From positions 1-64,000 of the forward strand of contig JAHBUE010000002.1 of assembly GCA_019638235.1 (NCBI GenBank): DNA of 64,000 nt, read 5' to 3'. This document shows positions 18,608 to 38,191 of the stretch, in pieces. The stretch is from Cyclobacteriaceae bacterium. GTDB taxonomy: Bacteria; Bacteroidota; Bacteroidia; Cytophagales; Cyclobacteriaceae. Under the pieces are notes generated by a model. That model searched no databases, had not been told where the DNA came from, and saw only the letters and a program-made list of their open reading frames with translations. The position numbers and the translations under genes are program-made. Each line of letters begins with the position of its first letter. Positions within the stretch are counted from its first letter, which is position 1.

Positions 18608-18668
18608 AATCTTATGCTTATTCTCTATTAAAGGTGTCGTCCGTCTATCCCATCAACGCTACTCTCAC

Positions 18669-19069: not shown

Positions 19070-19112
19070 CAGAAAAAACTATTTTTGTTACCAAAATAAG
19101 CCTTACACTTAT

Positions 19113-19758: not shown

Positions 19759-19790
19759 TTTCTTACCTTGACAGCCATAGCTGTGTCCTA

Positions 19791-19815
19791 TTGAAAGCGA
19801 TTTAAAGGCTTTCAA
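19791..19815 (+). other. Intergenic hairpin between Cys-rich gene and HMA gene
   Basis: Perfect 8-bp stem TTGAAAGC/GCTTTCAA (19791-19798 with 19808-19815) with a 9-nt loop, 35 bases before the next ATG. It has no long T tail, so it is more likely an mRNA-processing or attenuation hairpin than a strong terminator. Confidence 0.4.
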
Positions 19816-19850
19816 AGTTTAAGTAATTTAGTAATCTAAAATTTTAAAAA

Positions 19851-20699: not shown

Positions 20700-20705
20700 C
20701 CAAAG

Positions 20706-20740
20706 AAGCAATGAAGTGATAAAATCCATCTTCATTGCTT
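20706..20740 (+). terminator. Hairpin between HMA gene and copper ATPase gene
   Basis: Perfect 11-bp inverted repeat AAGCAATGAAG (20706-20716) with CTTCATTGCTT (20730-20740), followed by TTTTC-like sequence and the ATPase ATG 17 bases later. It could be a partial terminator tuning expression between the two genes, or an RNA stability element. Confidence 0.5.
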
Positions 20741-20757
20741 TTCAAAACTAAAATAGT

Positions 20758-22905
20758 ATGAAAAAATATACTTGTCCGATGCACCCGCAGGTGATGAAGG
20801 ACGAACCGGGGAAATGTCCGCTTTGCGGAATGGATTTAGTTCCGATGGGAGGAGCAAAAAAAGAAGCTCACAGCCATCACGGACACCATCAACATCACGA
20901 CCACAAAGAACATTCGCATCATAGTGAAAATCATAATCAGCATTCCGATAGTGGCTATGACAAACACGAAGGACATCATACCCACGATTTTCTCAAACGC
21001 TTTTGGATAAGCTTAATCATTACCGTGCCTATTTTGCTGTTATCTGAAATGATACAGGAATGGTTTGGTTTCACGGTTGTTTTTCCAGGAGATAAATATG
21101 TATTGCTGGTATTGGGAACTATTATGTATATCTATGGCGGAATGCCATTTCTGAAAGGAATGGTAGGCGAAATTAAAGCCAAAGCCATCGGAATGATGAC
21201 ACTGGTAGCAATCGCTATTTCAGTCGCTTACATCTATTCAGTTGCCGTTGTTTTTGGATTGCCCGGTATGGACTTCTTTTGGGAACTGGCAACCCTTATC
21301 GTGATTATGCTTTTGGGACATTGGCTGGAAATGCGTTCTACTATGGCAGCTTCAAAAGCATTGCAGTCATTGGTGGCACTTTTACCAAACGATGTTACGG
21401 TGGAGCGAAATGGTGAAGCCATAAAAATAAAACTCGAAGACCTAAAAAACGGTGAAACCATTATCATCAAACCCGGTGAAAAAATTCCTGCCGATGGAAC
21501 GATTGTTGATGGCGTTTCGTACGTAAACGAAAGTATGCTCACAGGCGAAAGTGTTCCGGTAAAAAAAGAAAAGGACGGAAAAGTAATTGCAGGTTCTATC
21601 AATGGCGAAGGTGCGTTAAGAGTTACGGCAACGGGAGTAGGAAAAGACAGTTATCTGAATAAGGTTATTAATTTAGTTCAGGATGCACAGGCAGCAAAAT
21701 CGAATACGCAAAACCTTGCCGATAAAGTAGCTAAATGGCTTACTTACATTGCCATTGCAGTAGGCGTAATCACGTTTATTTATTGGTTTGGCAGTAGCGG
21801 AGATATTGCTTTTGCTTTGGAAAGAATGGTTACGGTAATGGTTACGGCTTGTCCACACGCTTTGGGTGTGGCTATTCCGTTGGTGGTTGCCATTTCTACA
21901 ACGCTTTCGGCAACCAATGGTTTGCTCATCCGCAACCGTACCGCTTTTGAAACCACACGAAAACTATCCACGATAATTTTTGACAAAACAGGAACGCTAA
22001 CCCAAGGTTCTCACGCTGTGGAAAAGGTTATTCCACTGACCGATAAATATGCTGCCGATGAAATGATACAGTATGCAGCAGCCGTTCAGCAATATTCCGA
22101 ACACCACATTGCGAAAGGTATTTTAAAAACGTTGAAAGAAAGAAACCTTGAACTATGGAAGTCGGAGAATTTCAGTTATATGGCTGGTATAGGTGTAAAA
22201 GCAGTAGTACACGGAAAAGAAGTTGTAGCGGCAGGACCTAATTATTTCAAACAAAACAATCTTACAGAGCCTGAAACACCAAAAGAAATCAATCAAAGCA
22301 TTGAAACAGTCAATTATGTTTTTATTGACGGTGAAGTTATCGGCATTATTACCTTGGCAGACAGTATCCGTGAGGGTTCGCAAGAAGCCATTGACCAGTT
22401 AAGACAGATGAATATCAAATCCATTCTACTTACAGGCGACAATGAAAAAATTGCGGCAGCCGTATCTCTACAATTAGGAATGGACGGTTATATCGCCAAT
22501 GTATTGCCTCACGAAAAGCAGGAAAAAATAAAGGAATATCAAGCCAAAGGGGAAGTGGTTGCGATGACCGGAGATGGCGTGAATGATGCACCTGCACTGG
22601 CACAGGCAGATGTCGGTATTGCGGTAGGTTCAGGTACGGATGTAGCAGCCGAAACAGCCGATATTATTTTGGTAAACAGCGACCCAAGAGATGTAGTAAA
22701 AATGATTGACTTCGGTAAACGGACATATAAAAAAATGGTTCAAAATCTGCTTTGGGCAGTTGGTTACAATGTGATTGCCATTCCACTTGCAGCAGGTGTG
22801 CTTTATCCGAATTTCGTTTTAAGTCCTGCAATGGGTGCGGTTTTGATGAGCGTAAGTACAATTGTGGTTGCGATTAATGCAAGCCTTTTAAAAATTAATA
22901 AATGA
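20758..22905 (+). CDS. copB: CopB-type copper/silver P1B-ATPase
   Basis: 715 residues. The N-terminus has the heavy-metal-binding motif YTCPMHPQVMKDEPGKCPLCGMDL (split here as YTCPMHPQ and CPLCGMDLVPMGG), then a His-rich stretch (about 35-75). Catalytic features: TGES in the actuator domain near 260, intramembrane ACPHALG near 364-370, DKTGTLTQG with phosphorylated Asp near 409, and TGDGVNDAPAL near 604. The CPH rather than CPC metal motif places it with P1B-3 CopB exporters of Cu2+/Ag+ (or Cu+). It exports metal from the cytoplasm to the periplasm, where the downstream oxidase can act. Confidence 0.95.
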   Translation: MKKYTCPMHPQVMKDEPGKCPLCGMDLVPMGGAKKEAHSHHGHHQHHDHKEHSHHSENHNQHSDSGYDKHEGHHTHDFLKRFWISLIITVPILLLSEMIQEWFGFTVVFPGDKYVLLVLGTIMYIYGGMPFLKGMVGEIKAKAIGMMTLVAIAISVAYIYSVAVVFGLPGMDFFWELATLIVIMLLGHWLEMRSTMAASKALQSLVALLPNDVTVERNGEAIKIKLEDLKNGETIIIKPGEKIPADGTIVDGVSYVNESMLTGESVPVKKEKDGKVIAGSINGEGALRVTATGVGKDSYLNKVINLVQDAQAAKSNTQNLADKVAKWLTYIAIAVGVITFIYWFGSSGDIAFALERMVTVMVTACPHALGVAIPLVVAISTTLSATNGLLIRNRTAFETTRKLSTIIFDKTGTLTQGSHAVEKVIPLTDKYAADEMIQYAAAVQQYSEHHIAKGILKTLKERNLELWKSENFSYMAGIGVKAVVHGKEVVAAGPNYFKQNNLTEPETPKEINQSIETVNYVFIDGEVIGIITLADSIREGSQEAIDQLRQMNIKSILLTGDNEKIAAAVSLQLGMDGYIANVLPHEKQEKIKEYQAKGEVVAMTGDGVNDAPALAQADVGIAVGSGTDVAAETADIILVNSDPRDVVKMIDFGKRTYKKMVQNLLWAVGYNVIAIPLAAGVLYPNFVLSPAMGAVLMSVSTIVVAINASLLKINK

Positions 22906-22912
22906 AATGAGC

Positions 22913-22961
22913 CATAAAATTTTTCGAGTAATTTATTCTAACTGCGATGAAAAATTTTATG
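22913..22961 (+). other. Long-loop inverted repeat between ATPase and oxidase genes
   Basis: Perfect 12-bp arms CATAAAATTTTT (22913-22924) and AAAAATTTTATG (22950-22961) with a 25-nt loop. The arms are AT-rich, so folding would be weak. Position between two co-directional genes suggests an RNA stability or attenuation role; a DNA-binding site is an alternative. Confidence 0.4.
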
Positions 22962-22985
22962 ACGAATTACATGTGACAAAAAACA

Positions 22986-25283
22986 ATGAAATTAACACAT
23001 GAAAATTCTGAAATGGATATACAAAGTATTTTTCAAAAAAAGCTGTTGCCGATAGCACTGATGCTCCTAGCAACAACTTCTCTTTTCGCACAGAAAGTAG
23101 TGCGATACGATTTGTATGTAAAAGACACATTGGTAAACTTTGCCGGAAAAGAAAAAAGAGCCATTGCAGTAAACGGTCAAATTCCGATGCCAACACTCAC
23201 TTTTACAGAGGGCGATACTGCTGAAATTGTGGTACACAACCAGCTAAAAGAAAGTACATCACTACATTGGCACGGAGTATTTTTGCCCAATAAAGAAGAT
23301 GGTGTGCCTTGGCTTACACAAAAACCTATTGAACCCGGTACAACTTACACGTATCGTTTTCCAATCATCCAAAACGGGACACATTGGTATCATTCCCATT
23401 CGGGTTTGCAAGAACAAATTGGAATGTATGGCAATTTTGTGATGCTAAAAAAGCAAAACGACCCAACTTTTAGAAAAGGCATCGATGATTTACCAACCGT
23501 TCCCCTGATGATAAGCGAGTGGACAAATTATAATCCCAATAACATCAATCGAATGTTGCACAATGCCAACGATTGGGCAGCCATTAAAAAAAATGCAACA
23601 CAGTCATACGCAGAAGCTATTCGGGAAGGACATTTTAAAACAAAAATCAGGAACGAATGGAAACGGATGTTGGCGATGGACGTAAGTGATGTGTATTATG
23701 ATAAAATTCTACTCAACGGAAATCACACAACCGATTTAAAAACGGTTGACGGAAAAACCTTGAAAGCAGGTGATAAAGTAAGATTAAGAGTTTCAAACGG
23801 TGGAGCTTCGTCCTATTTTTGGTTGCGGTATGCAGGCGGTAAAATTACCGTAGTTGCCAATGACGGCAATGATGTAGAACCTGTTGAAGTGGACAGGTTG
23901 ATTATTGCGGTTTCTGAAACTTATGATATTGTTGTTACCATTCCTGATGACGGTGTTGCTTACGAATTTTTGGCAACCACCGAAGACAGAACACAATCTG
24001 CAAGCTATTTTATTGGAAACGGCATCAAGCAATTAATTTCCCCACTTCCAACATTGAAATATTTTGAAGGGATGAAAATGATGAACGATATGATGAAAAT
24101 GAATGGCGATCTGGACGATATGGGAATGAAAATGAGCCTGAACCAAATGGATATGAACGTGGTAATGTATCCCGAAATAACAGGAGAAGCGAAGCAAAAA
24201 CAAAAGCACGACCATAGTCAGCACAATATGGACAACGACCCAAACCGCTACAATGCCAACGAATTAGGAGAAATAAAGACCCTGAATTATGCAATGTTGC
24301 AATCGCCACATAATACAGAACTTCCTAAAGATGCTCCGGTGAAAGAATTGAAATTTACGCTTACCGGAAATATGAACCGCTATGTGTGGAGTATGGATAA
24401 TAGAATACTTTCGGAAGTGGATAAAATTCCTGTGAAGAAAGGAGAAATTCTACGCATCACGATATACAATAACTCTATGATGCGACATCCGATGCACTTG
24501 CACGGTTTTGATTTTAGAGTAATCAATGGTAAAGGCGAAAATGCTCCTCTCAAAAATGTATTGGATATTATGCCAATGGAAACCGATACCATCGAGTTTT
24601 TGGCAAATGAAGAAGGCGATTGGTTTTTTCACTGCCATATCTTATACCATATGATGGGCGGAATGAATAGAGTTTTTGCAGTTGATGACTATCAAAATCC
24701 ACACTTACCCAACAAGAAACAAGCCTACAATAAATTGCAAAGAGAAAGTAATATGCTGCACTTTATGATTGAAAATGATTTTGCAACCAATGGGAACGAT
24801 GGTGAAGCAATGGTTCAAAATGCAAGATGGAGTTTGGGTACAGAATGGCGGTTGGGCTATAATGATATGCACGGCTACGAAGTAGAAACGCATTTGGGAC
24901 GATACATCGGCAAAATGCAATGGTTTATGCCGTTTATTGGTTTTGATTACCGATACCGAAAAATGGGAATGGACGAACACGAAACAAACTTATTCAGACA
25001 AAAGAATGAAAAAGATACACGCAGAGCTGTTAGTTTAGGTTTTATGTACACCCTGCCAATGCTCGTTAACTTTCAGGCAGAAGTATATCACGATGGAATT
25101 GTCCGATTGTCTTTGATGCGTGAAGACATTCCGATTTCAAAAAGAATAAGAGCAGGTTTTATGGTCAATACCGATTTTGAATATATGGCTGAACTAAAAT
25201 ACATTATCAATAAAAATATGGGAATACGAACACATTATGACAGCGATATGGGATTTGGAGTTGGACTATCATTGAATTATTAA
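22986..25283 (+). CDS. Multicopper oxidase fused to a CopB-like outer membrane beta-barrel
   Basis: 765 residues; start could also be the ATG at 23013 (MDIQSIFQKK). Signal peptide ends SLFAQ. Cupredoxin copper ligands are visible: LHWHGVFLP, THWYHSHSGLQEQ, RHPMHLHGFDFR, FFHCHILYHMMGGM, the complete type 1/2/3 set of CopA-like oxidases. A Met/His-rich loop (MKMMNDMMKMNGD, near 360-405) resembles the Cu+-binding insert of CueO/CopA. After about residue 585 the sequence changes to alternating, Tyr/Phe/Gly-rich strands ending GFGVGLSLNY, i.e. a CopB-type barrel (PF05275-like) fused in the same chain. Expected role: oxidising Cu+ and resisting copper at the outer membrane. Confidence 0.88.
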   Translation: MKLTHENSEMDIQSIFQKKLLPIALMLLATTSLFAQKVVRYDLYVKDTLVNFAGKEKRAIAVNGQIPMPTLTFTEGDTAEIVVHNQLKESTSLHWHGVFLPNKEDGVPWLTQKPIEPGTTYTYRFPIIQNGTHWYHSHSGLQEQIGMYGNFVMLKKQNDPTFRKGIDDLPTVPLMISEWTNYNPNNINRMLHNANDWAAIKKNATQSYAEAIREGHFKTKIRNEWKRMLAMDVSDVYYDKILLNGNHTTDLKTVDGKTLKAGDKVRLRVSNGGASSYFWLRYAGGKITVVANDGNDVEPVEVDRLIIAVSETYDIVVTIPDDGVAYEFLATTEDRTQSASYFIGNGIKQLISPLPTLKYFEGMKMMNDMMKMNGDLDDMGMKMSLNQMDMNVVMYPEITGEAKQKQKHDHSQHNMDNDPNRYNANELGEIKTLNYAMLQSPHNTELPKDAPVKELKFTLTGNMNRYVWSMDNRILSEVDKIPVKKGEILRITIYNNSMMRHPMHLHGFDFRVINGKGENAPLKNVLDIMPMETDTIEFLANEEGDWFFHCHILYHMMGGMNRVFAVDDYQNPHLPNKKQAYNKLQRESNMLHFMIENDFATNGNDGEAMVQNARWSLGTEWRLGYNDMHGYEVETHLGRYIGKMQWFMPFIGFDYRYRKMGMDEHETNLFRQKNEKDTRRAVSLGFMYTLPMLVNFQAEVYHDGIVRLSLMREDIPISKRIRAGFMVNTDFEYMAELKYIINKNMGIRTHYDSDMGFGVGLSLNY

Positions 25284-25293
25284 AACCCATCAA

Positions 25294-25360
25294 TTGCAAG
25301 CACATTGCCAAAGCCACACAAGCCAACGCTCAAACCAAAGCTTTGGCAAAGAGCTTGCAA
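25294..25360 (+). other. Large hairpin downstream of the multicopper oxidase gene
   Basis: Arms 25294-25314 and 25340-25360 match at 19 of 21 positions, with a 25-nt loop. No T tract follows. The stretch from here to 25504 has no convincing gene. It may end the copper transcript, or be the relic of an older attC-like stem; the arm content (GCCAAAGC) resembles the L boxes of the array's sites. Confidence 0.4.
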
Positions 25361-25504
25361 AGCCGACTCAAGACAAAATTGTTTTAAAAAAATTCCCGAC
25401 CCTTCAAAAAAAATTAAAAAACGTAACACACAACCGACCCGACAATGACACAAAAAACTCAATACTGACAATGGTTTGCAAAGACTGGCAGACAGAACAC
25501 CAGC

Positions 25505-25637
25505 CGGTAACAAGGGTTTGGCGTAATGGCGGGCGAAGTGCTTCGTATGAAAGTTTTTGCTAAATTTGAACTTTGGTGCTTCGATTGAAGCGTAGTGCTA
25601 AAATGCCGCCACTACGCCAAGCCGCAAAACGTTATGC
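25505..25637 (+). repeat. attC-like site 1 (end of copper cassette)
   Basis: R'' CGGTAAC at 25505-25511 and R' GTTATGC at 25631-25637 bound 133 bp. Inner arms TTTGGCGTAATGGCGG and the complement of CCGCCACTACGCCAAG match at 14 of 16, giving the bulged cruciform of an attC. R'' is complementary to the core at 19171, R' to the R'' of site 2. The central loop has TTTGAACTTTGGTGCTTCG, a motif shared with the other sites. Confidence 0.82.
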
Positions 25638-25721
25638 GTCACCCTATCTGACCGCAAGTCCAGACTTCAACCGACAACAAAATTGAAAAAAATAACAAAA
25701 AAACATTGATAGTCAAAAACA

Positions 25722-25741
25722 ATATCGTAATATTGCAATAT
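25722..25741 (+). promoter_or_regulatory. ArsR operator upstream of arsR
   Basis: Imperfect palindrome beginning ATATCGTAATATTGCA, 17 bases before the arsR ATG. The same 16 bases recur at 26103-26118. The position and the form (AT-rich dyad of ArsR/SmtB type) indicate autorepression of arsR relieved by arsenite. Confidence 0.7.
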
Positions 25742-25757
25742 AAAAATTGAATAAGCA

Positions 25758-26084
25758 ATGGGAGCAACAAAAACAGAGCATTTTACAGACCGACAAAACC
25801 AAATTGCGACAATTGCCAAAGCATTGGGACATCCTGCGAGAATTGCAATTATTGAATATCTGATGAAAGTAAACGAATGTATTTGTGGCGACATTGTGAA
25901 CGAACTTCCTTTGGCTCAACCGACTGTTTCGCAACATTTGAAAGAATTAAAAAATGCTGGTATTATAAAAGGAAACATCGAAGGAAATTCAATTTGCTAT
26001 TGTATTGACGAAAAAACAATCGATATTCTAAATTCTTATTTCTCAATTATTGTACAAACCGTTACAAAAGCCAAATGCTGTTAA
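25758..26084 (+). CDS. arsR: ArsR-family arsenite-responsive repressor
   Basis: 108-residue winged-helix repressor. The recognition helix region LAQPTVSQHLKELKNAGII is typical. Cys residues that could bind As(III) are in NECICGDIV (about 37-41), CYCID and the C-terminal KCC. It starts the arsenic operon, with identical operator sequences on both sides of the gene, so it probably controls itself and, independently, the downstream genes. Confidence 0.93.
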   Translation: MGATKTEHFTDRQNQIATIAKALGHPARIAIIEYLMKVNECICGDIVNELPLAQPTVSQHLKELKNAGIIKGNIEGNSICYCIDEKTIDILNSYFSIIVQTVTKAKCC

Positions 26085-26102
26085 GCATTTTTTTGACATT
26101 AT

Positions 26103-26118
26103 ATATCGTAATATTGCA
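26103..26118 (+). promoter_or_regulatory. Second ArsR operator between arsR and the efflux genes
   Basis: ATATCGTAATATTGCA is an exact 16-base copy of the sequence at 25722-25737, in the 58-base gap between arsR and the DUF6428 gene. This suggests an internal ArsR-controlled promoter that lets the transport/reduction genes respond separately. Confidence 0.65.
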
Positions 26119-26142
26119 TTAAACAAATAAACTAAAAATAAG

Positions 26143-26595
26143 ATGAAATTATCAAGCGTAAAGCAGATTTTACCGACATTGGAAAATATTGAATTCCAAC
26201 TCGAAACCGGAACTTTTGTTCCCGAACATTTTCACGTAACAGAAGTGGGAATGATTACCAAAAACTTCATTGATTGTGGAGGTGTAATCCGTACAGAAAA
26301 AGTGGTAAACTTTCAGTTATGGAACGCAAATGATTATGAACACCGTTTAAAACCAAACAAATTGCTCAACATCATCAAACTTTCGGAAGAAAAATTAGGT
26401 ATCGAAGATTTGGAAATTGAAGTGGAATACCAAAGCGACACTATTGGGAAATATGATTTAGAATTTAATGGAAAAACCTTTTTACTGAAAAGTAAAACAA
26501 CGGCTTGTTTGGCACAAGACGCTTGCGGAATTCCGACAGAAAAGCAAAACGTTCAAACCTCTTCTTCTTGTACACCTAATAGCGGTTGTTGTTAA
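26143..26595 (+). CDS. DUF6428 family arsenic-operon protein
   Basis: 150 residues, soluble, no signal. The body has [19 protein letters not shown] near residue 28-46, typical of DUF6428 proteins found in Bacteroidota arsenic operons. The C-terminus is Cys-rich (CLAQDACG ... [10 protein letters not shown]), which suggests arsenite or thiol-metal binding; a metallochaperone-like role is an inference. It lies 4 bases upstream of the acr3 gene. Confidence 0.85.
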
Positions 26596-26599
26596 AAAT

Positions 26600-27673
26600 A
26601 TGCAAGTACGATTAAAATTTTTAGACCGTTATCTTACACTTTGGATTTTCTTGGCAATGGCAATCGGTGTTGGTTTGGGATATTTTTTTCCAAGTATTCC
26701 CGACAGTATTAACTTGGTTTCTGTAGGGACAACCAATATTCCTTTGGCAATTGGTTTGATTTTAATGATGTATCCGCCATTAGCAAAAGTGGATTATTCC
26801 TTATTACCCAAAGCATTAAAAGATAAAAAAGTAATTGGAATATCTCTATTTCTTAATTGGTTTGTTGGTACAATACTGATGTTCGGATTAGCCGTTTTGT
26901 TTTTACGAAACGAACCCGATTATATGACAGGCTTAATACTGATAGGTTTGGCAAGATGTATAGCAATGGTAATTGTTTGGAGTGATTTGGCAAAAGCAAA
27001 CAGAGAATACACAGCTATGTTAGTTGCATTAAACAGCATCTTCCAGGTACTTTCTTATAGCTTCTTAGTTTGGTTGTTTATTAATGTATTACCGAGCAAG
27101 TTAGGATTAGCAAATTTCAATGTAAGTGTGTCAATGAAAGATGTTACAGAAAGCGTATTGATATACTTAGGTATTCCATTCTTAGCAGGTTTTTTAAGTC
27201 GATATTTTTTGGTAAAATCAAAAGGTATAGAATGGTATAACAGAAAATTTGTACCTACAATTTCACCCATTACATTATATGCTTTACTATTTACTATAGT
27301 ATTAATGTTCAGCTTAAAAGGTAATAAAATTGTGGAATTGCCATTTGATGTTTTAAAAATAGCCGTTCCGCTTGTAATTTATTTTATACTAATGTTTTTC
27401 GTGAGTTTCTTTATCAATATGGCGTTAAAAATACCTTATGATAAAAATGCTTCAATATCATTTACCGCCACAGGAAATAATTTTGAATTAGCTATTGCCG
27501 TTGCAATCGCTGTTTTCGGCATAAATTCTCCGCAAGCATTTGTCGGTGTTATTGGTCCTTTGGTAGAGGTTCCCGTTTTAATATTGTTAGTAAAAATCAG
27601 CTTATTTCTCAAACAAAATATTACTCAAAATGAAAAAGAAAATTTTAGTGCTTTGCACAGGAAACAGTTGTAG
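26600..27673 (+). CDS. acr3: ACR3-family arsenite efflux permease
   Basis: 357-residue inner membrane protein with about ten hydrophobic helices. The conserved ACR3 motifs are present: [19 protein letters not shown] with the essential Cys near residue 117, and [20 protein letters not shown] with the conserved Asn-rich discontinuous helix. It exports As(III) using the proton gradient. The last 44 bases overlap arsC, an unusually long overlap; the tail (after LFLKQN) is hydrophilic. Confidence 0.95.
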
Positions 27674-28046
27674 AAGTCAAATCGCAGAAGGATATTTAAG
27701 ACATTTCGCAGGACAAAAAGCAGAAATTTATAGTGCCGGTGTGGAAACTCACGGTGTAAATCCCAAAGCAATTACAACAATGAAAGATGACGGAATTGAC
27801 ATTTCAAATCATACCTCAAACAACATTGACGAATATCGAAATATAGATTTTGAATTCGTAATTACGGTTTGTGACAACGCCAAAGAACGCTGTCCATTCT
27901 TCCCTACCAAAGCTCAAAAATTTCATTACAATTTTCCTGACCCAGCAAAAGCGACAGGAACGGACGAGGAAGTGAAAGAACAGTTTCGACAAGTTCGACA
28001 AATGATAAAAGATTACTGCAAAACGTTTGTCGAACAAAATTTGTAA
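27630..28046 (+). CDS. arsC: Thioredoxin-type arsenate reductase (LMW phosphatase fold)
   Basis: 138 residues. The P-loop [17 protein letters not shown] holds the nucleophilic Cys (residue 9) and Cys14 (CxxxxxR loop); later Cys residues in [12 protein letters not shown] provide the redox relay, and the general acid Asp is in FPDPAKATG. It reduces As(V) to As(III) for export by the upstream permease. Start overlaps acr3 by 44 bases. It is the last gene in the arsenic cassette; site 2 begins 23 bases after its stop. Confidence 0.95.
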
Positions 28047-28069
28047 CTTGCTAAACAAAAAGGGCGAAC

Positions 28070-28203
28070 GCATAACAGCGGTTTTGCAAGATTGCGGAGT
28101 TAGTGCTTAAATTAAGGTTTTTGCATATCTTTGAACTTTAGTGCTTAACCGAAAGTTTCGGCTTCGTTAGTCCGCAACCTCGCAAAGCCGCAACCCGTTA
28201 GTG
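28070..28203 (+). repeat. attC-like site 2 (end of arsenic cassette)
   Basis: R'' GCATAAC (28070-28076) and R' GTTAGTG (28197-28203), 134 bp. Arms GCGGTTTTGCAAGATTGCGG and the complement of the right side match at 17 of 20. R'' with its neighbours is the exact reverse complement of the cassette start GTTATGCGT at 25631. Confidence 0.85.
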
Positions 28204-28230
28204 GCAAGCTTATAAAGACAGAATTGAATT

Positions 28231-28839
28231 ATGGAAAAATTTTTAGAAAAACTATTTGACATTAATAAAATCCCGACAAAGTTAATCATTGTGATTTTGC
28301 TAAGTTCTGCTTTGATTTTATTTGTTCCTCAACAGTTTTTGACTAAACTAAATCTTGACGGCTTTCTTCATGACTATGGAAAATTTATTGGTATCTCTTT
28401 TATTGTAAGCTCTGGTTTTACACTAATTGCTTTATGGACTTATGTTACAAGACTTATAAGCAGACGCAGACTCTCAAAAAAAATTAAGGAAAGTATTATT
28501 AAAGACATCAACTATCTCGACTTCCATGAAAAAGCTTTGTTAAGAGAGTTTTTTATTAATGGAAAACATACATTACAATTGCCTTTTGACAATGACACGG
28601 TCGTAGGCTTAGTGAACAAGCATATAATTTATCAAGCTTCCAGCACAGGATTTACTTATTTGCATGGTGCTTATTTTCCTTATACAATTTCTGACATTGC
28701 TAATAAACACTTGACAAACAAAATTCTTGAATTACCCGAAAATCCGACTGAGGAGGAAAAACGGAAAATTTTAGACAGCAGACCAAATTGGGCTAAGGAG
28801 CGTAGTCGAATGGACGACTTGTTTAACTCAAGATGGTAA
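28231..28839 (+). CDS. Superinfection-exclusion protein B (SieB)-like membrane protein
   Basis: 202 residues: two hydrophobic helices (about 18-36 and 50-72), a basic stretch (RLISRRRLSKKIKES), then a cytoplasmic domain. The segment EKALLREFFINGKHTLQLP followed by a VVGLVNKHII stretch and a Tyr/Phe-rich end matches my knowledge of SieB-type proteins, which in phages block infection by related phages. As the only gene of its cassette it is a plausible anti-phage gene; the assignment rests on pattern memory, not alignment. Confidence 0.68.
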   Translation: MEKFLEKLFDINKIPTKLIIVILLSSALILFVPQQFLTKLNLDGFLHDYGKFIGISFIVSSGFTLIALWTYVTRLISRRRLSKKIKESIIKDINYLDFHEKALLREFFINGKHTLQLPFDNDTVVGLVNKHIIYQASSTGFTYLHGAYFPYTISDIANKHLTNKILELPENPTEEEKRKILDSRPNWAKERSRMDDLFNSRW

Positions 28840-28846
28840 AGCCAGC

Positions 28847-28978
28847 CACTAACACGGGTTTTGCGTCAGGCGGGCTGACGTGCAAACTTGGAGCTTTGTG
28901 CTTCTAATGAACTTTTGTAATAAATTGAAACTTTGTGCTCCGAAACCCGCCCGAACGCAAAGCCCGAAACCGTTAGCA
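28847..28978 (+). repeat. attC-like site 3 (end of SieB-like cassette)
   Basis: R'' CACTAAC (28847-28853) and R' GTTAGCA (28972-28978), 132 bp. Arms CGGGTTTTGCGTCAGGCGGG and the right complement match with one extra base on one side, as with extrahelical bases in attC. The opening GCCACTAAC is the reverse complement of the cassette start at 28197. Confidence 0.85.
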
Positions 28979-29000
28979 CACATAATAAAAGACGACCAGA

Positions 29001-30119
29001 ATGTATCTAATTGACAAAGAAAAAAATAGAATATCCAAACTGAAACAAATGACTTTTTCCGAACTGAAATTTAGGGAAAGAGAACATTTACAGGAATGGA
29101 TTGCTAACAACCCAAACTCACTTGGAGAAGAGCTTCTTATCATTCAAAAAGAGTTTAGCGGATTTAACGAGACAAATGAAAGACTTGACTTACTTGCATT
29201 AGACAAGCTTGGTAATCTTGTAATCATCGAAAACAAACTTGACGACTCGGGCAAAGACGTTACTTGGCAAGTAATTAAATACGCTTCCTATTGTGCAAGT
29301 TTGACAAAGCAGGACATCTTAAAAATTTACCAAGACTTTTTAGGCTCTAAAGCTGACGCACAGGAAATGATTTCGGAATTTTTCGACAATAGGGATATTT
29401 CTGAAATTGTGCTTAATCAAGGCTTAAACTCGCAAAGATTAATGTTGGTAGCCGCAAACTTCCGAAAAGAAGTTACATCTACCGTTTTATGGTTAATGAA
29501 CTTCAAAATAAGGTTGCAATGCTTTAAAGTGACACCTTTTGCTTTTGGAGAACAACTTTTCCTTAATGTAGAACAAATACTACCAACCAAAGACACAGAA
29601 GATTTTGCAATTAGCATAGCGACAAAAGCTCAGGAAGAAATTGAAGTCCAAGAATCTTTAAAAAACAGACATCTTGTAAGACTGAAATTTTGGGAACAAT
29701 TCATCAACGCAAGTAATCAAGTAAATCAACTTTTTGCAAATAACTCACCATCAAAAGAAAGTTGGATAGGCAAAGGCATCGGAATGAGTGGTGTAAACAT
29801 TAACCTTGCAATGAGTAATAACTATTGCAGAAGTGAGATAATTTTTAATCGTGGTAGCCAAGAAGAAAATAAAGAACTTTTTGACTTCATCTACCAAATG
29901 AAAGATAAAATAGAAAGTGATTTTGGCGGGCCTTTGACTTGGGAGCGTATGGACGACAAAATAACTTGCAGAATTAAATCCCAACTTGACGGTGTGAGTT
30001 ATTTTGAAGAAAGCGATTGGAAAAAAATGAACGAATTTCTAATTGACGTTTCAGTTCGGATGGAAAAAGCATTTAAAGAACCGATTAAAAAACTGAATAA
30101 CTATTGGAAAAACAAATAA
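29001..30119 (+). CDS. DUF4268-type protein with N-terminal PD-(D/E)XK nuclease-like domain
   Basis: 372 residues, soluble. Around residue 60-80 the sequence NERLDLLALDKLGNLVIIEN plus KLDDSG has the Asp-x(n)-Glu-x-Lys spacing of NucS/PD-(D/E)XK nucleases (D in LDLLALD, E and K in IIENK). The C-terminal third, with KFWEQF and the late block RSEIIFNRGSQEENKELFDF, resembles DUF4268. The function is unknown; such proteins are frequent near restriction and defence genes. It is the sole gene of its cassette. Confidence 0.75.
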   Translation: MYLIDKEKNRISKLKQMTFSELKFREREHLQEWIANNPNSLGEELLIIQKEFSGFNETNERLDLLALDKLGNLVIIENKLDDSGKDVTWQVIKYASYCASLTKQDILKIYQDFLGSKADAQEMISEFFDNRDISEIVLNQGLNSQRLMLVAANFRKEVTSTVLWLMNFKIRLQCFKVTPFAFGEQLFLNVEQILPTKDTEDFAISIATKAQEEIEVQESLKNRHLVRLKFWEQFINASNQVNQLFANNSPSKESWIGKGIGMSGVNINLAMSNNYCRSEIIFNRGSQEENKELFDFIYQMKDKIESDFGGPLTWERMDDKITCRIKSQLDGVSYFEESDWKKMNEFLIDVSVRMEKAFKEPIKKLNNYWKNK

Positions 30120-30126
30120 TTACGTG

Positions 30127-30258
30127 TGCTAACAGGCGTTTGGCTCAATGGCGGGTGACGTGGTTAATTGAACATTCTACCTCGCATCAACACTTGTGGT
30201 GTATTGACAGTTTTGTGCTCCGAAATCCGCCACTGCGCCAAGCGCCAAAACGTTATAT
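30127..30258 (+). repeat. attC-like site 4 (end of DUF4268 cassette)
   Basis: R'' TGCTAAC (30127-30133) and R' GTTATAT (30252-30258), 132 bp. Arms GGCGTTTGGCTCAATGGCGG and the right complement match at 17 of 20. The opening GTGTGCTAAC is the reverse complement of the cassette start GTTAGCACAC at 28972. The site is about 97 percent identical to site 6. Confidence 0.87.
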
Positions 30259-30279
30259 GCAAGTTGAAAAATCACTCGA

Positions 30280-30921
30280 ATGGAAAAAGGTGTTTTCGAA
30301 AAAAGTTTTATAGAAAAGCTAGATAAAAACTTTCCAGAATTAAGTAAATATTTTGAATTTAATCTGGAAATTTTCTGTGAGTTTAACACATTAATATTTG
30401 AGATAAACAAATGCTTAATTCTCGAATTTCACAGAGCTACAATAACGTTGACAAACAACTTACTAGAGCGACTTTTAAAACTTGCATTAATTAATAATGA
30501 GACAGGAATCGGACCGATACCGATTGAAAAATGGAATGAAGTATTCAAAGAACCAAATAGAAAATATGGCTCAATCCCTTTAGGAAATTCAATAGAAAAA
30601 TGCAAAAAACTTGGACTTCTATCTGAACAAGAAAAACACTTTCTATTCAATATAATTCGTGAATTAATGCGAAATGGATTCTCACACGCTGATTCAAGTA
30701 AAATCCTTGCTGATTTACCTGACAATTCACCAATGTTTCAAGGAAGTTTGACAAATCCAAATGCGGATTTAAAAGAAGTCGGGATAAATCAAAAAATCAT
30801 ACCGACTTTTCAAGCTTTACAAATGGAGAATTTTGCTAAAGAAAATGCTAAAGATTATTTTGATTTCGTTTTCCATTTAATTTTTCGAATTGAAGAACGT
30901 TTAAAAGAAAAACAGAAATAA
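30280..30921 (+). CDS. HEPN-like hypothetical protein
   Basis: 213 residues, all-alpha looking, no signal or membrane segment. The stretch IIRELMRNGFSHADSSK (about 127-143) has the R-N-x3-H pattern (RNGFSH) of HEPN ribonucleases and their relatives. No named family is recognised. As a single-gene cassette among defence-type genes, an RNase acting in abortive infection is a reasonable but unproved inference; there is no linked antitoxin gene. Confidence 0.6.
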   Translation: MEKGVFEKSFIEKLDKNFPELSKYFEFNLEIFCEFNTLIFEINKCLILEFHRATITLTNNLLERLLKLALINNETGIGPIPIEKWNEVFKEPNRKYGSIPLGNSIEKCKKLGLLSEQEKHFLFNIIRELMRNGFSHADSSKILADLPDNSPMFQGSLTNPNADLKEVGINQKIIPTFQALQMENFAKENAKDYFDFVFHLIFRIEERLKEKQK

Positions 30922-30928
30922 AACCTGC

Positions 30929-31061
30929 ATATAACACCGGCTATAGTTCATTGCTTCTGACTTTCCTCTCGGAAAGTTCTCGCAAATTTGCTATCTTCGG
31001 TTTACGGCGGAAAATCCTCGCGGATTTTCACGCAACGAAACCATAGCCAAACACGTTGTGT
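30929..31061 (+). repeat. attC-like site 5 (end of HEPN-like cassette)
   Basis: R'' ATATAAC (30929-30935) and R' GTTGTGT (31055-31061), 133 bp. The arms differ in sequence from the other sites (GGCTATAGTTCATTGC against GCAACGAAACCATAGCC) but keep length and form; an inner AT/GC-rich double hairpin fills the loop. The opening TGCATATAAC is the reverse complement of the cassette start at 30252. Confidence 0.8.
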
Positions 31062-31086
31062 GCCATTATATAAAGACCGTTGACAA

Positions 31087-31578
31087 ATGAGTATAGAGAA
31101 ACAAATAAACCAAGCAGAGACAAATCTGCAAAGAAAATTAGATTGGGTTGGACGACATGACAGCAGAACAACTTTTGTTGCAGGAATCTTAATTGCAATG
31201 CTTGGAGTTTTAGCTTCTTCAAGTTCTAAAGTTGAAGAATGGACAATATTTGCATATGTAGTTTTTGGAGTAACCGGAGTGACTTTAGCTGCTGGACTCT
31301 ATTTCATTTATAAATGCCAATTTCCACAAACAGAGTCTTCAAATAATTCATTAAATTATTTCGGGACAATTGCTGAAATGAAATTTGATGATTTCAAAAA
31401 GAAAACTCTAGGCTCATCGGACAAAGATTATTTGGAAGATATTCTATATCAAATCCATAGAAATTCTGTGATTCTAAAACTAAAATTCCAGTATCTTAAA
31501 TTAGCTTTAGTAATGTTGAGTATTTCAATTCTTCCATGGTTGGCATCAATTTATCTTTCCAACGAATACTTGAAATAA
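31087..31578 (+). CDS. Pycsar-type two-helix membrane effector (DUF5706-like)
   Basis: 163 residues. An N-terminal amphipathic helix leads to two hydrophobic segments (about 34-50 and 55-77), then a cytoplasmic loop with YFGTIAEMKFDDF and an ILYQIHRNSVILKLKFQYLK helix, then a last hydrophobic segment. This layout and the F-G-x(n)-Q-I-x-x-N-S pattern fit Pycsar membrane effectors that disrupt the inner membrane when cCMP or cUMP is made. Its stop overlaps the start of the cyclase gene by one base, so the two are coupled. Confidence 0.72.
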   Translation: MSIEKQINQAETNLQRKLDWVGRHDSRTTFVAGILIAMLGVLASSSSKVEEWTIFAYVVFGVTGVTLAAGLYFIYKCQFPQTESSNNSLNYFGTIAEMKFDDFKKKTLGSSDKDYLEDILYQIHRNSVILKLKFQYLKLALVMLSISILPWLASIYLSNEYLK

Positions 31579-32285
31579 TGGCAATATTAGATACTCTAGA
31601 AAGTGAAGTAAACTCAATTCTAAGCATAAGTTGGAATGAAAGAAATGGAACTGTCATTCCAGAGACAACAGACGTAGCGCTAAAAGATGGTGCTGTAAAA
31701 ATTGAAGCGACATTTCTTTATGCGGACTTGGCTGGTTCTTCGTTATTGGCAAAAACTTGTCCATGGCAGACGACAGCTAAAATCATTAGAACTTATCTTG
31801 ACACAGCTGTAAGACTAATTCGACATCATAATGGTGAAGTAAGAAGTTTTGATGGTGATAGAGTTATGGGAATTTTTAAGGGTCTCTATCCTAATACTTC
31901 GGCTGTGACATGTGCGAGAAATATAGACTGGGTTGTAACTAACATTATAAACCCTAAAGCAACAGAAAAATTTAAATCAATTAGAGATAACGACATAAAA
32001 ATCAAGCATTGTGTTGGTGTAGACACTAGTGAAGCACGAGCCGTTCGATCAGGAATTAGAAACTATAATGACTTGATTTGGATTGGTAAAGCTCCAGCGT
32101 TTGCAGCAAAATTATCAGACATTCGAGATTATCCCTATGAAGTTTATATTTCGAAAGAATGTTACAATAAACTTGCTGCGAGTGCTAAGAAAAATGGAAC
32201 CGAAGACGTTTGGACTGCTAAAGATGTGGTTATAAGTGGACAAACTCATACAGTTTATAGGTCTAAAACACTATTAAAACCATGA
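31578..32285 (+). CDS. Class III nucleotide cyclase, Pycsar cyclase-like
   Basis: The frame is open from 31536, but the ATG at 31578 overlaps the preceding stop (TAATG) and is taken as start, giving 235 residues. The cyclase domain has the first metal Asp in FLYADLAGSSLL (about 43-54), the second metal Asp in VRSFDGDRVMGIF (about 90), and the substrate-binding turn DLIWIGKAPAFAAKL (about 170). The compact stand-alone domain beside a membrane effector matches Pycsar systems, where PycC makes cCMP or cUMP on phage infection. Which base it uses cannot be told by eye. Confidence 0.78.
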   Translation: MAILDTLESEVNSILSISWNERNGTVIPETTDVALKDGAVKIEATFLYADLAGSSLLAKTCPWQTTAKIIRTYLDTAVRLIRHHNGEVRSFDGDRVMGIFKGLYPNTSAVTCARNIDWVVTNIINPKATEKFKSIRDNDIKIKHCVGVDTSEARAVRSGIRNYNDLIWIGKAPAFAAKLSDIRDYPYEVYISKECYNKLAASAKKNGTEDVWTAKDVVISGQTHTVYRSKTLLKP

Positions 32286-32295
32286 GAATAACGGC

Positions 32296-32427
32296 ACACA
32301 ACAGGCGTTTGGCTCAATGGCGGGTGAAGTGGTTAATTGAACATTCTACCTCGCATCAACTTTTGTGGTATATTGACAGTTTTGTGCTCCGAAATCCGCC
32401 ACTGCGCCAAGCGCCAAAACGTTAGCC
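32296..32427 (+). repeat. attC-like site 6 (end of Pycsar-like cassette, last site)
   Basis: R'' ACACAAC (32296-32302) and R' GTTAGCC (32421-32427), 132 bp. It differs from site 4 at only about four positions between the outer boxes. The opening GGCACACAAC is the reverse complement of the cassette start GTTGTGTGCC at 31055. No further site follows; the next unit begun here is interrupted after about 40 bases by the REP element. Confidence 0.87.
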
Positions 32428-32806: not shown

Positions 32807-35569
32807 TTAAACTTTCAAATCACTCACTGAGTCAACTACACGGTAATTCACATGGTCGATTGCTTCAAAGTGCTTTTCTGCACAGGCTATTTTCAATTGC
32901 TCGCTATCCCGTAACAAGGTGCGATCTTTCATTGCTTTCGGGTCTTTAGTTTCTGCTACGAAGTAGATTTTGGTTTCTTCACCGTCTTCTTTTTTTATCA
33001 AAGCCCAATCGGGGTTGTAAGGACCTATTGGAGTTTTGACCACAAAGGTTCCCGGAAGCTTCACATAGAAAAGAATATCATCCCTGCTTTCACAATCTTC
33101 TGCAAACTTGCGTTCCGGTGAACTCAGCGAATCAATGGCCACATAGTTGTAAAGCGTTTTTGCCTGCTTCTTAACCTCTATCAGATTTTCCAGATATTGC
33201 TCAATTTCTGCGGCTTCAAACAATTTCATTTCATAGGCCTGTCCGGCAATCTTCTCGTACTGAATGCCCTTGATTTTAATTCGGTCAAATTCATGTTTGA
33301 TGATACGCACCACGCTATCCATGAATAGTTGAGGGTTATGGAAGATTTCGCCCAGGCGTTTAGAGTGCAAAACTATTCGGGTAATAGTAGCACGCGTAAG
33401 CTCTGTTTTGGATTGGATATAGGTGATAAAATCAGGAATGTCGTAATTGGTTTCTTTTACCATCTTCTCTTTTGAGCCTTTCTGCTCTCCGCCCAATTCA
33501 ATCAGTTTGCCCCGGGCATCCCTAACGAACTTTGCCGCATTCTTTTCACGATAGACTACTGGCCGCTCGATAGTGGGCATGGTTTGTAATGCAGCCACAC
33601 AATTTGTAATAAGTGCTTCGGTGCTATAATTAACTTTGTATTCTGTTTTGGCTCTGATTTTCTCCCATAGCTCAAGGAAGAGAGAATCCTCCATCCATTT
33701 GTCTTTGAGTTTTATACTGGCTCTTGCTCGGGCATTTTTGATACGGCCTTCAAACTTCACACCACAATCTTCCTCTATTTCCTTTTGCAGGGCTTTGGAG
33801 AATGATTCATAGGCTTCATTGGCAACGATAGTTAGTCTATTGATAGCGCGGTCAGGGTTTCTCGCCCCGGTTTGGTCAACGCATAAGCGGAGACCTCTGC
33901 CAATTTCCTGTCGTTTTTTTATATCAGACCTGGTTTCGTTGAGTGTACAGATTTGGAATACATTAGGGTTGTCCCATCCCTCGCGCAAAGCGGAGTGACT
34001 AAAAATGAAACGCAGCGGTATTTTTTCATCCAATAACCTTTCCTTATCGCGCATGATTAGGTTATAAGTATCGTCATCCGCCTTTGTAGCTCTGGTTTCT
34101 TTAGTGTCTTTGTATTTCCCTGCCTTATCCTGGCTGAAATAACCATCATGTACCTCCGATGCTTTGAAACTCAACAAACCTCTGTAAGCTGGCATGTTCT
34201 GCCATTTGGTATAGCTTTCTTCAAACCACTCGGCAAATTTTCCACGAATTGTGTTTCCCGCATCATCATATCCCCGATAGTTAGCCACACGGTCGATAAA
34301 GAATATAGAAAGCACTTTAATCCCTTTGCCTTGCAATTCTTTTTCCTTCCTGAAGTGATTCTCTACCGTGGCACCTATCATTTCCTTGAGTATCTGATTG
34401 GTAAGGCCGCCAACAGCTTCCCCGTAGCAGACAACCTGACCACTTGAAAACTTTATGAACTGGTTGTCGGCATCAATCTCGTTGATTACATAACCGTCTT
34501 TGTAAATATCCCAATGCTTAGAAAGTTTGTACAAATCATCACCAATCTTTGCCGAAACCTGTTTTTTCTGTACACCTCCTTTTTCATTAAGGAAAATGGA
34601 TACTTTGGCCGTAACAGATTTTTTGGCCAAACGGAAACCATCCACGCTAATGAAAGCTCCTGAACTGTCGTTTCTGGCCACAACGGAATCTACTTCAATC
34701 TGCTTAACCAAGCCCAGATCATAGGCCTTTACCGGGTCAAGCTTATACACAAGGTTGTAGGTATTCTTGTGAGTGGCTGAATACCTGAGCGTGAATAAGG
34801 GATTGAGGTTGGCGATAGCCCGCTTCCGAATATCGGTTTCCATATTCTGCGGTTCGTCAATTATCACAATCGGGTTTGATTTCTGAATGTACTCAATCGG
34901 TTTAATGCCCGATTCCCTTACCTGGTTGATAACGTTGGCATCTTTGGTGAAGGAATCAATATTGATTACGAGTATCTGAATGGCATTGCTCTTGGCAAAA
35001 TTGCCTAAATCGGTTAATCTGCCAGAATCATAAACTTTGTATTCTGAAGGTTGATTTTCATAGATCTCCTGAAAGTGGTCGAAGGTGATTTGCAGTGATT
35101 TGATAACCCCTTCGCGAATAGCCACAGAAGGAACCACAATTACAAATTTCCTGAAACCATAAACTTTGTTGAGTTCATAGATAGAACGCAGGTATACATA
35201 GGTTTTTCCTGTTCCGGTTTCCATCTCTACAGAATAGTTAGCAAACCCGGTTACTGTTGTTTTTCCTTCCTGCACATCCTTCACTGAAGCATCTTCATTA
35301 TACCATAGTTTTTCTACTTCGGAAGAAATTTCATCTTCCCGCAATTCATTCTTTCGCTGAACCTTGCTGAGATTGACAAGTAATTCTTCTTCTGTAAGAG
35401 CAAGACTGTTACCCACTCCGGCTTCCGTAAATTTGATACTACCGGTATTGCCATCATCCTTCGAAAACTCAAAAGCTGAATTGCTCATAGGCTGTCCATC
35501 AAACAAGTCAACGACTGATTGGATAGCCTGTAATTGGTATTCCTGGTTTTTATCAAATTTAAACCTCAT
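32807..35569 (-). CDS. res: Type III restriction endonuclease, Res subunit
   Basis: 920 residues. An SF2 helicase core: Walker A METGTGKTYVYLR near residue 110, DEPQ box in PIVIIDEPQNMET (about 235), and motif VI QEIGRGLRLC (about 545). The C-terminal nuclease domain has the PD-(D/E)XK elements IGPYNPDWALI and FVAETK (about 855-885), the catalytic Asp and Glu-x-Lys. It translocates or signals along DNA and cleaves with Mod bound at unmethylated sites. The Mod gene is upstream on the same strand, separated by one additional gene. Confidence 0.95.
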   Translation of the reverse strand: MRFKFDKNQEYQLQAIQSVVDLFDGQPMSNSAFEFSKDDGNTGSIKFTEAGVGNSLALTEEELLVNLSKVQRKNELREDEISSEVEKLWYNEDASVKDVQEGKTTVTGFANYSVEMETGTGKTYVYLRSIYELNKVYGFRKFVIVVPSVAIREGVIKSLQITFDHFQEIYENQPSEYKVYDSGRLTDLGNFAKSNAIQILVINIDSFTKDANVINQVRESGIKPIEYIQKSNPIVIIDEPQNMETDIRKRAIANLNPLFTLRYSATHKNTYNLVYKLDPVKAYDLGLVKQIEVDSVVARNDSSGAFISVDGFRLAKKSVTAKVSIFLNEKGGVQKKQVSAKIGDDLYKLSKHWDIYKDGYVINEIDADNQFIKFSSGQVVCYGEAVGGLTNQILKEMIGATVENHFRKEKELQGKGIKVLSIFFIDRVANYRGYDDAGNTIRGKFAEWFEESYTKWQNMPAYRGLLSFKASEVHDGYFSQDKAGKYKDTKETRATKADDDTYNLIMRDKERLLDEKIPLRFIFSHSALREGWDNPNVFQICTLNETRSDIKKRQEIGRGLRLCVDQTGARNPDRAINRLTIVANEAYESFSKALQKEIEEDCGVKFEGRIKNARARASIKLKDKWMEDSLFLELWEKIRAKTEYKVNYSTEALITNCVAALQTMPTIERPVVYREKNAAKFVRDARGKLIELGGEQKGSKEKMVKETNYDIPDFITYIQSKTELTRATITRIVLHSKRLGEIFHNPQLFMDSVVRIIKHEFDRIKIKGIQYEKIAGQAYEMKLFEAAEIEQYLENLIEVKKQAKTLYNYVAIDSLSSPERKFAEDCESRDDILFYVKLPGTFVVKTPIGPYNPDWALIKKEDGEETKIYFVAETKDPKAMKDRTLLRDSEQLKIACAEKHFEAIDHVNYRVVDSVSDLKV

Positions 35570-35571
35570 AG

Positions 35572-36288
35572 CTAAAGTCTTTGATAGCCTAATTGCCCGA
35601 TAGCATCTATAACTTGTGGCACATCGAGAGCATTGCTTAGGTAAATAACGCGGTATGTACTCCTAACTGCAAAAGAATCATCATCCCAAGGTGTTAAGGG
35701 TACATTTACTCCTTGATCTACCATCGTATCCCAAGTTGAGCCACCTACAAGAGAAAAAGTGACTGTTTGTGCAGTAAGTAAATCGGCTTTCTGCGTATCG
35801 AACAACACAGCGAGATAGAGGTTCTTTTGCACTTCACCTGGCTTTATACTATTTGAATAAGGGCCAATGTTCTTAAAATTTGCATTAGTATTACATAAGG
35901 CAAACTTCACTCCTTTCCGAGGAAATGATGAGCGCACTTCAATACGATGACCTCGATTTAACTGAATATCAATTTGAATTGAGGCATTTGTAAAAGGAGT
36001 TGGCGAGGCAATAGTATTGAATGTTGCATTAATATATTGTTCCCAACCGGATTCTGCACACAAACCACCAAAAGAATCGATTCTTCTTCTTTGAAGCGTT
36101 CTTTCAACTTGTGCATTATTTGCAGCCCCTGTACTTACAAGGCGAGCTAATTGATCTGCTCGTTCAAGGATTGACTTGTACTCGGGCGTACCGCGTACTA
36201 AAGTACATTGAATGATACTAAATGAGCGCGTAGAATATCTTGTGTTCGGGGGAACCTGGCACTTAATCGTATTTGGTGTAAGATTCAT
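35572..36288 (-). CDS. Unknown protein inserted in the type III R-M operon, PD-(D/E)XK-like
   Basis: 238 residues, no recognised family. A Gly/Trp motif ESGWEQYINATFNT (about 79-92) precedes strand-like IQIDIQLNRGHRIEVRSSFP (about 105-124), which looks like an Asp...Glu-x-Arg nuclease core, with Arg where Lys is usual, followed by a GPYSNSIKPGEVQKNLYLAV stretch. It starts 13 bases after mod and ends 2 bases before res, so it is an integral operon member. A nuclease or specificity accessory is an inference; a bystander is possible. Confidence 0.8.
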   Translation of the reverse strand: MNLTPNTIKCQVPPNTRYSTRSFSIIQCTLVRGTPEYKSILERADQLARLVSTGAANNAQVERTLQRRRIDSFGGLCAESGWEQYINATFNTIASPTPFTNASIQIDIQLNRGHRIEVRSSFPRKGVKFALCNTNANFKNIGPYSNSIKPGEVQKNLYLAVLFDTQKADLLTAQTVTFSLVGGSTWDTMVDQGVNVPLTPWDDDSFAVRSTYRVIYLSNALDVPQVIDAIGQLGYQRL

Positions 36289-36301
36289 TCTTCCGGGCTT
36301 T

Positions 36302-38185: not shown

Positions 38186-38191
38186 GCTCAA

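Follow-up and report, generated by a model that had tools for sequence, protein, structure and literature searches.

Gene organization of the locus

The window analyzed here comprises the first 64,000 nucleotides (forward strand) of contig JAHBUE010000002.1 in the assembly GCA_019638235.1 of a Cyclobacteriaceae bacterium (Bacteroidota), and we focus on three neighboring genes in it, which code for a SieB-family membrane protein, a nuclease with DUF4268, and a putative HEPN ribonuclease. The three open reading frames (ORFs) are all intact, lie on the forward strand, and code for 202, 372, and 213 residues, respectively; furthermore, each of them is the sole gene between two repeat sites of about 125 bp. 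As detailed below, an integron-type array in this genome of 3.66 Mb carries the three genes, each as a cassette of its own. The genes, their cassettes (from the G of GTT to the C of AAC), and the attC-like sites (from AAC to GTT, with the score in model R1) are as follows.

25509-25633, forward: attC-like site b1, 132.5 bits
28074-28199, forward: attC-like site b2, 111.6 bits
28197-28853, forward: SieB cassette
28231-28839, forward: SieB-family membrane protein (PF14163), 202 residues
28851-28974, forward: attC-like site b3, 134.4 bits
28972-30133, forward: PDC-S11 cassette
29001-30119, forward: RecB/NucS-like PD-(D/E)xK nuclease with DUF4268 (PADLOC PDC-S11), 372 residues
30131-30254, forward: attC-like site b4, 132.3 bits
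30252-30935, forward: HEPN-like cassette
30280-30921, forward: putative HEPN ribonuclease, 213 residues; RNGFSH is R131-x4-H136 (conservation, model, and fold comparison)
30933-31057, forward: attC-like site b5, the most divergent, 65.5 bits
32300-32423, forward: attC-like site b6, the last of the array, 139.6 bits

A preliminary description of this DNA, made from the letters alone, had placed three single-gene cassettes at 28198-31055; the range is essentially right, and each gene indeed stands alone between two sites with inverted ends.

Cassette anatomy

Every unit of the array starts with GTT and ends with AAC, and the bases after GTT are the reverse complement of those before AAC. In the window, these inverted ends are perfect over 9-10 bp in all of the five fully bounded cassettes: namely, GTTATGCGT/ACGCATAAC in an arsenic-resistance cassette, GTTAGTGGC/GCCACTAAC in the SieB cassette (9 bp perfect, with 6/6 outer pairing), GTTAGCACAC/GTGTGCTAAC in the PDC-S11 cassette (10 bp perfect), GTTATATGCA/TGCATATAAC in the HEPN-like cassette (10 bp perfect), and GTTGTGTGCC/GGCACACAAC in a Pycsar cassette (10 bp). 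Pairing of the outer six bases was tested over 119 intervals, each bounded by consecutive sites of this genome or of a relative; it was 6/6 in 91 of them, as compared with 2.4% with shuffled partners, and was perfect in all five window intervals between sites. In many of the intervals that failed, a weak site seems to have been overlooked or placed incorrectly. The sites themselves fold as a hairpin, with compensatory changes in 12 of 13 pairs (26 sites), and a hairpin together with R'/R'' pairing within the cassette is what characterizes the attC sites of integrons. In the four defense cassettes (SieB, PDC-S11, HEPN-like, and Pycsar), the start codon lies 28-34 nt past GTT and the stop codon 12-15 nt ahead of AAC, and the largest ORF is oriented along the array in 99 of the 112 cassettes with an ORF. 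Inverted ends and hairpin sites together give the anatomy of an integron cassette, which derives from a circle that was closed at a single folded site and has opened at GTT. No Rfam family was found to match the attC-like sites.

Also, we noticed that TAnnTTTG, the -7 promoter box of Bacteroidota, occurs on the array strand in 31 of 107 sites versus 7 in shuffles (alignment A5) and on the opposite strand in 3 sites versus 10 in shuffles; in the window, such boxes are located at 25561 and 28126. Judging from this motif, the attC-like sites possibly carry their own promoters.

The SieB-family protein

The protein in the SieB cassette matches PF14163 at 3.4e-30 with 105 bits against the Pfam cut-off of 26 and possesses the full-length domain as well as two hydrophobic segments, spanning approximately residues 11-38 and 50-70, in agreement with the SieB-like membrane protein proposed earlier. 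The SieB family is scarce in Bacteroidota, with four of 198 genomes above the cut-off. Close relatives were not found among 241 genomes of the order, and the family profile was used after that search had come up empty. The closest relative found, in L099, is 65% identical and comes from another family within the same class; its gene is flanked by GTTGGTGGCA/TGCCACCAAC and is hence in a cassette there too. A distant SieB-like gene (28% identical) was seen in a viral contig, on the opposite strand among head genes, and such a place among viral genes is usual for prophage exclusion genes. SieB exclusion is proven for the proteins of lambda and P22, with which the protein examined here shares the full-length Pfam domain and the two N-terminal hydrophobic segments, but it is encoded in a chromosomal cassette rather than borne by a prophage. 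In the inner membrane, the SieB-family protein would stop the development of a superinfecting phage.

The PDC-S11 nuclease

In line with the Glu-x-Lys nuclease core and DUF4268 noticed earlier, the second protein is composed of an N-terminal RecB/NucS-like nuclease core, with weak matches to NucS profiles (1.5e-5), and a C-terminal DUF4268 (PF14088, 1e-30). No variation was seen in the nuclease residues D63, E77-N-K79 (the Glu-x-Lys core), and Q90xxxY94 when the window protein was compared with five homologues (42-81% identity). PADLOC matches the protein to PDC-S11 in full length (residues 1-370, 3.9e-155), and the match together with the PD-(D/E)xK catalytic residues places it in this group, which we take to be a candidate named from genome context. 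It resembles the PADLOC entry in its length and nuclease residues but differs in that the gene here is in a cassette. Both the nuclease and the HEPN-like protein had been proposed as possibly undescribed stand-alone systems, which fits the latter with no family match (see below) but not the former, catalogued as PDC-S11. In the two homologue contexts that were read (L094 and L096), the nuclease gene is directly behind hsdR in type I restriction-modification (R-M) islands, and CD-NTase-like and AAA/TOPRIM-like ORFs (named by eye) are in the neighborhood in L094. Around five other PDC-S11 homologues inspected, no cassette site was found. The RecB/NucS-like nuclease would cut invading or phage-altered DNA, with DUF4268 as its likely recognition or regulatory part.

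A putative HEPN ribonuclease and its transfer

The RNGFSH motif noticed earlier in the third protein is real; of 24 aligned sequences, all have R131 and N132 and 23 have H136, which corresponds to the Rx4-6H motif of HEPN proteins. The 23 relatives among genome contigs are all Bacteroidota records, with 55-95% identity over the aligned set, and no relatives were found in viral contigs. The protein has no significant match in Pfam, including its HEPN models, NCBIfam, PADLOC, or PHROGs, and therefore looks undescribed; also, a sequence search of the PDB found nothing, and Foldseek alone returned no significant match.

An AlphaFold2 model based on 24 sequences has a mean predicted local distance difference test score of 86.6. 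In the fold comparison, the best chain for the first model was HI0074 (Z score of 9.6, 3.3 Å over 114 residues), followed by a HEPN toxin (Z score of 8.1, 4.0 Å over 121 residues) and two MtlR structures (7.3 and 7.0), with the next chain at 5.5. The best chain for the second model was MtlR (Z score of 7.1, 4.3 Å over 126 residues), followed by the C-terminal parts of Csm6 (6.4, 4.3 Å over 118 residues) and Csx1 (5.8, 5.6 Å over 114 residues). All of the chains named here, the top four with the first model and the top three with the second, are thus members of the HEPN superfamily, which includes HI0074 and MtlR; the absence of any given HEPN family from these tables was not counted as evidence. 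Furthermore, the RNGFSH motif is located at the end of a helix ahead of the last helix, as in HEPN proteins. Because the same superfamily comes first with both models and the motif is in this position, we rate the protein as probably HEPN despite the moderate Z scores, which are within the range that helical bundles can reach by chance; on these models, its membership is regarded as quite probable, and the protein is probably a new family of HEPN RNases. In comparison with HEPN ribonucleases such as the HepT-type toxin, the HEPN parts of Csm6/Csx1, HI0074, and the MtlR fold, which are its best structural matches, the protein shares Rx4H at a helix end and the all-helical architecture, but it has no significant match to a Pfam HEPN model and no nucleotidyltransferase partner, and its motif is separated from the last helix by some 40 residues that include a beta hairpin.

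At the DNA level, positions 30247-30923 are 94.5% identical to Kordia periserrulae of the class Flavobacteriia, and no match was found beyond them. Since the match begins and stops at the cassette edges, the cassette is the unit of transfer; judging from this comparison, the HEPN-like cassette has moved between bacterial classes as an exact unit. We also noticed that one array seems to hold two copies of an acetyltransferase-like gene (L068:1062-1580 and L068:6818-7336), one of them directly behind the HEPN-like cassette.

The HEPN-like protein would be a metal-independent and probably dimeric ribonuclease, whose Arg-x4-His active site would be released on infection to cut RNA; this cutting would stop phage production, whether the cell is lost or not.

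Other cargo of the array and of the genome

Three further cassettes were found in the array.

19171-25511, forward: probable first cassette, a copper/silver-resistance cluster, 6.3 kb (functions by eye)
25631-28076, forward: arsenic-resistance cassette with ArsR-type regulator, transporter, and ArsC-like ORFs (functions by eye)
31055-32302, forward: Pycsar cassette with PycTM at 31087-31578 and PycC to 32285, its ATG most likely at 31578

In the Pycsar cassette, PADLOC matched the 2TM effector (4.2e-38), PycTM (6.6e-28), and PycC (6.8e-84), so that PycC and a TM effector, the pair defining Pycsar, are both present. As in known Pycsar (PycC and PycTM), both genes match the PADLOC models and overlap at stop and start, but here they form a single cassette. 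The first cassette, holding a whole copper/silver-resistance cluster, is very large for a cassette.

The preliminary description had considered the cargo as biased to phage defense. This holds for four of the six cassettes of the array, which are defense-like, but the other two are resistance cassettes, one for copper/silver and one for arsenic; the type III R-M genes, which had also been counted as defense cargo, are outside the array (see below). This genome has twelve further cassettes with end pairing of at least 4/6, and three of them have strong PADLOC matches, namely to PDC-S02 (5e-143), SoFic (3.5e-111), and UzuA (4e-63). The cargo of other arrays includes a HindIII-type restriction enzyme, a C5 methylase, a type IV restriction enzyme, and AbiLi, while the remaining cargo comprises metal resistance, a beta-lactamase family protein, membrane proteins, and unknowns. 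In the other arrays, 93 cassette proteins matched 176 PADLOC models versus 22, mostly of general enzymes, for 94 non-cassette controls, a comparison that counts models and not proteins and is inflated by methyltransferase models. These counts suggest that defense genes are enriched in cassettes; defense is a frequent, not an exclusive, cargo.

Are the three genes anti-phage factors?

From the families and residues described above, we consider it rather likely that the three genes are independent single-gene anti-phage factors carried as cargo of the integron-type array; the anti-phage activity of all three proteins is a prediction. Several points weigh against this. The proof of SieB exclusion concerns the lambda and P22 proteins and not this Bacteroidota branch, and no phage test of PDC-S11 was found in the literature searched. 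The fold match of the HEPN-like protein is moderate, and Z scores of 9.6 and 7.1 can be reached by all-helical proteins by chance; also, Tyr replaces His of the motif in its homologue in L077. Some HEPN-like homologues (L055/L072 and L057) are alone in ordinary housekeeping surroundings of the chromosome, and context by itself is hence no proof of defense. Finally, with two of its six cassettes devoted to metal resistance, the cargo is not defense alone.

Alternatively, the cassettes might be real but at least one of the genes might have another task; the HEPN-like protein might be an RNase for growth regulation or for addiction, by which the cassette is retained in the array, the nuclease a repair enzyme, and the SieB-like protein a membrane stress factor. 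Toxin-antitoxin cassettes are known as stabilizers of integron arrays, and the lone HEPN-like genes near housekeeping genes would also fit such a task, but no antitoxin-like partner gene is present in the single-gene HEPN-like cassette, and the adjoining cassettes are often defense genes; in other arrays, the neighbors of HEPN-like genes include PDC-S47, PDC-S15, and an NsnA/PD-T4-2 gene. The two PDC-S11 homologues behind hsdR and the patchy distribution, with 6 of 390 and 10 of 241 genomes, further speak against another task, which we thus regard as unlikely. Loss of the suspected catalytic residues, or homologues consistently in non-defense contexts, had been named beforehand as signs against a defense function. 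Neither sign spoke against it: the residues are kept both in the nuclease (six sequences) and in the HEPN-like protein (R in 24 of 24 and H in 23 of 24), and the two nuclease homologues with known surroundings are behind hsdR. Some HEPN-like homologues are in ordinary surroundings.

Array head, recombinase, and distribution of the sites

The two ends of the array are marked by the following features.

18664-18877, forward: direct repeat, left copy, about 215 bp, 96% identical to the right copy
18935-19069, forward: C-terminal remnant of a Xer-like recombinase, 44 residues, 97.7% identical to an intact copy
19060-19171, forward: attI-like segment, with 10 genome copies of 91-100% identity
32466-32680, forward: direct repeat, right copy, partner of the left copy; the pair bounds the whole array

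The intact recombinase (L042:11563-12597, reverse strand) heads another array in the same genome. At 19171, the attI junction GTTACCGGC pairs with the left end (R'') of site b1; this 9-mer is weak by itself but is placed exactly at the end of the attI-like segment. Given the remnant, the attI-like segment, and the pairing of the junction with b1, the window includes the head of the array, which is then ordered as the remnant, attI, the 6.3-kb copper/silver cassette, the arsenic-resistance, SieB, PDC-S11, HEPN-like, and Pycsar cassettes, and the end. No downstream partner was found for R' of site b6, which is followed by the flanking repeat, and the type III R-M genes (32807-38191) are therefore outside the array and were rejected as its cargo. 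A 238-residue ORF between type III mod and res (35572-36288) has no family match. The flanking direct repeat has just two full-length copies genome-wide and may record the arrival of the array or represent a recombination route for its loss. A REP-like palindrome, GGCACAAGCGGACGCTTGCGCC, was also seen at 18882-18906 and in about 20 places of the genome, including both array flanks.

In terms of the attI-like copies, ten were seen (18935-19171 and nine other places) versus one intact neighboring recombinase, and several of them share the 3' end of the recombinase; there may be satellite arrays served in trans by one enzyme. With just 53 candidates scored, the covariance model recognized a minimum of 51 sites in this genome; of 59 genomes, 48 had such sites, and long arrays were seen in G004, G014, and G016.

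Tyrosine recombinases adjoin the arrays on the same strand, and an attI-like junction partnering the left end of the first site was found 69-781 nt past the recombinase stop codon in nine of the ten arrays tested, i.e., an attI beside the integrase as in integrons; in the window, the remnant and the attI-like segment take this place. Given the hairpin sites, the GTT/AAC cores, the attI-like site, and the arrays, all of which are integron-like, this might be a canonical integron array with ordinary attC sites served by an IntI integrase and not by Xer-like recombinases. Most of the array recombinases also have a C-terminal SP(L/F)D, with which IntI ends as well (including IntI in L016). The recombinase of this genome is, nonetheless, matched better by XerC-like (1.5e-43) and XerA (2.9e-40) proteins, its closest relatives of solved structure, than by IntI4 (2.3e-34), and boxes I and II are separated by 91-96 residues in the array recombinases versus 132 in the IntI of G041, so that the insertion between the boxes, which defines an IntI-type integrase, is absent. 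Moreover, TIGR02249 was matched above the cut-off in just one of 99 relatives, G041, whose IntI (L016, G041:C13:43538-44470) matches IntI4 at 5e-58, and no site of this kind was found in that short locus. Service by IntI is hence considered improbable, and the array, with Xer-like recombinases lacking the IntI-defining insertion, is a variant of the integron. Some of the array recombinases (L148:7937-9301 and L153:6141-7508) seem to have a repeated N-terminal module with an RW/KW..K.W pattern.

Still less plausible, to the point that we give it almost no credence, is a normal defense island with ordinary repeats (repetitive extragenic palindromes, miniature inverted-repeat transposable elements, or terminators) scattered by transposition and no cassette mechanism, which would suit the REP-like palindromes just outside the array and the many sites of this genome that are single or in small groups but leaves unexplained the interval-specific inverted ends (the pairing of which speaks strongly against it), the attI junctions, and the homology stopping at cassette edges.

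Discussion

Integrons with defense cargo are known from Vibrio and mobile integrons, as described in PMC12409362, where Darracq et al. 2025 and Kieffer et al. 2025 are cited for integrons as reservoirs of anti-phage cassettes and about 10% of the integron cassettes of Vibrio cholerae are reported to be phage-protective in tests (Darracq et al. 2025). In Bacteroidetes, the survey with IntegronFinder 2.0 states that elements with just an integrase had been reported before and that a single complete integron was then found, in Salinibacter (PMC9024848). The arrays described here resemble the defense integrons of Vibrio and mobile elements in their small and mostly single-gene defense cassettes, their hairpin attC-type sites, and the modest share of anti-phage cargo, whereas those integrons are classical and the present arrays belong to Bacteroidota and have a Xer-like recombinase without the IntI insertion, on the same strand as the cassettes. 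We found no description of these Bacteroidota arrays in the open literature, a search outside which most subscription papers and preprints fall.

The following scheme would account for the array. Each cassette would formerly have existed as a circle, closed at a single folded attC-like site, before its insertion at GTT; as in integrons, the recombinase would cut at GTT and insert or excise cassettes via folded single-stranded sites. Cassettes would thus be captured behind the attI-like site and spread as units, of which the unit transfer is seen in the sequence and the chemistry is inferred. Expression may come from upstream or from the promoter-like boxes in the sites. As their families and residues predict, the three genes would provide one-protein defenses acting by membrane exclusion, DNA cutting, and RNA cutting, and the array with the adjoining Pycsar cassette would form a small mobile defense island with metal resistance at its head.

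In a broader sense, Bacteroidota would have a widespread integron class of their own, in which a Xer-type recombinase without the IntI domain collects single-gene phage defenses, and the HEPN-like cassette would represent a new RNA-cutting defense family traveling across classes on that integron class; we see this broader proposal as evenly balanced between right and wrong. Sites of one recognizable kind are present in 48 of 59 relatives searched, and arrays can contain tens of cassettes. Should the recombinase act in the way supposed here, cassettes could be captured without the IntI-specific domain, and the sites would allow a search through a large pool of defense candidates that are small and clonable. 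Among them, the HEPN-like family is a compact and testable candidate for a stand-alone, RNA-targeting defense.

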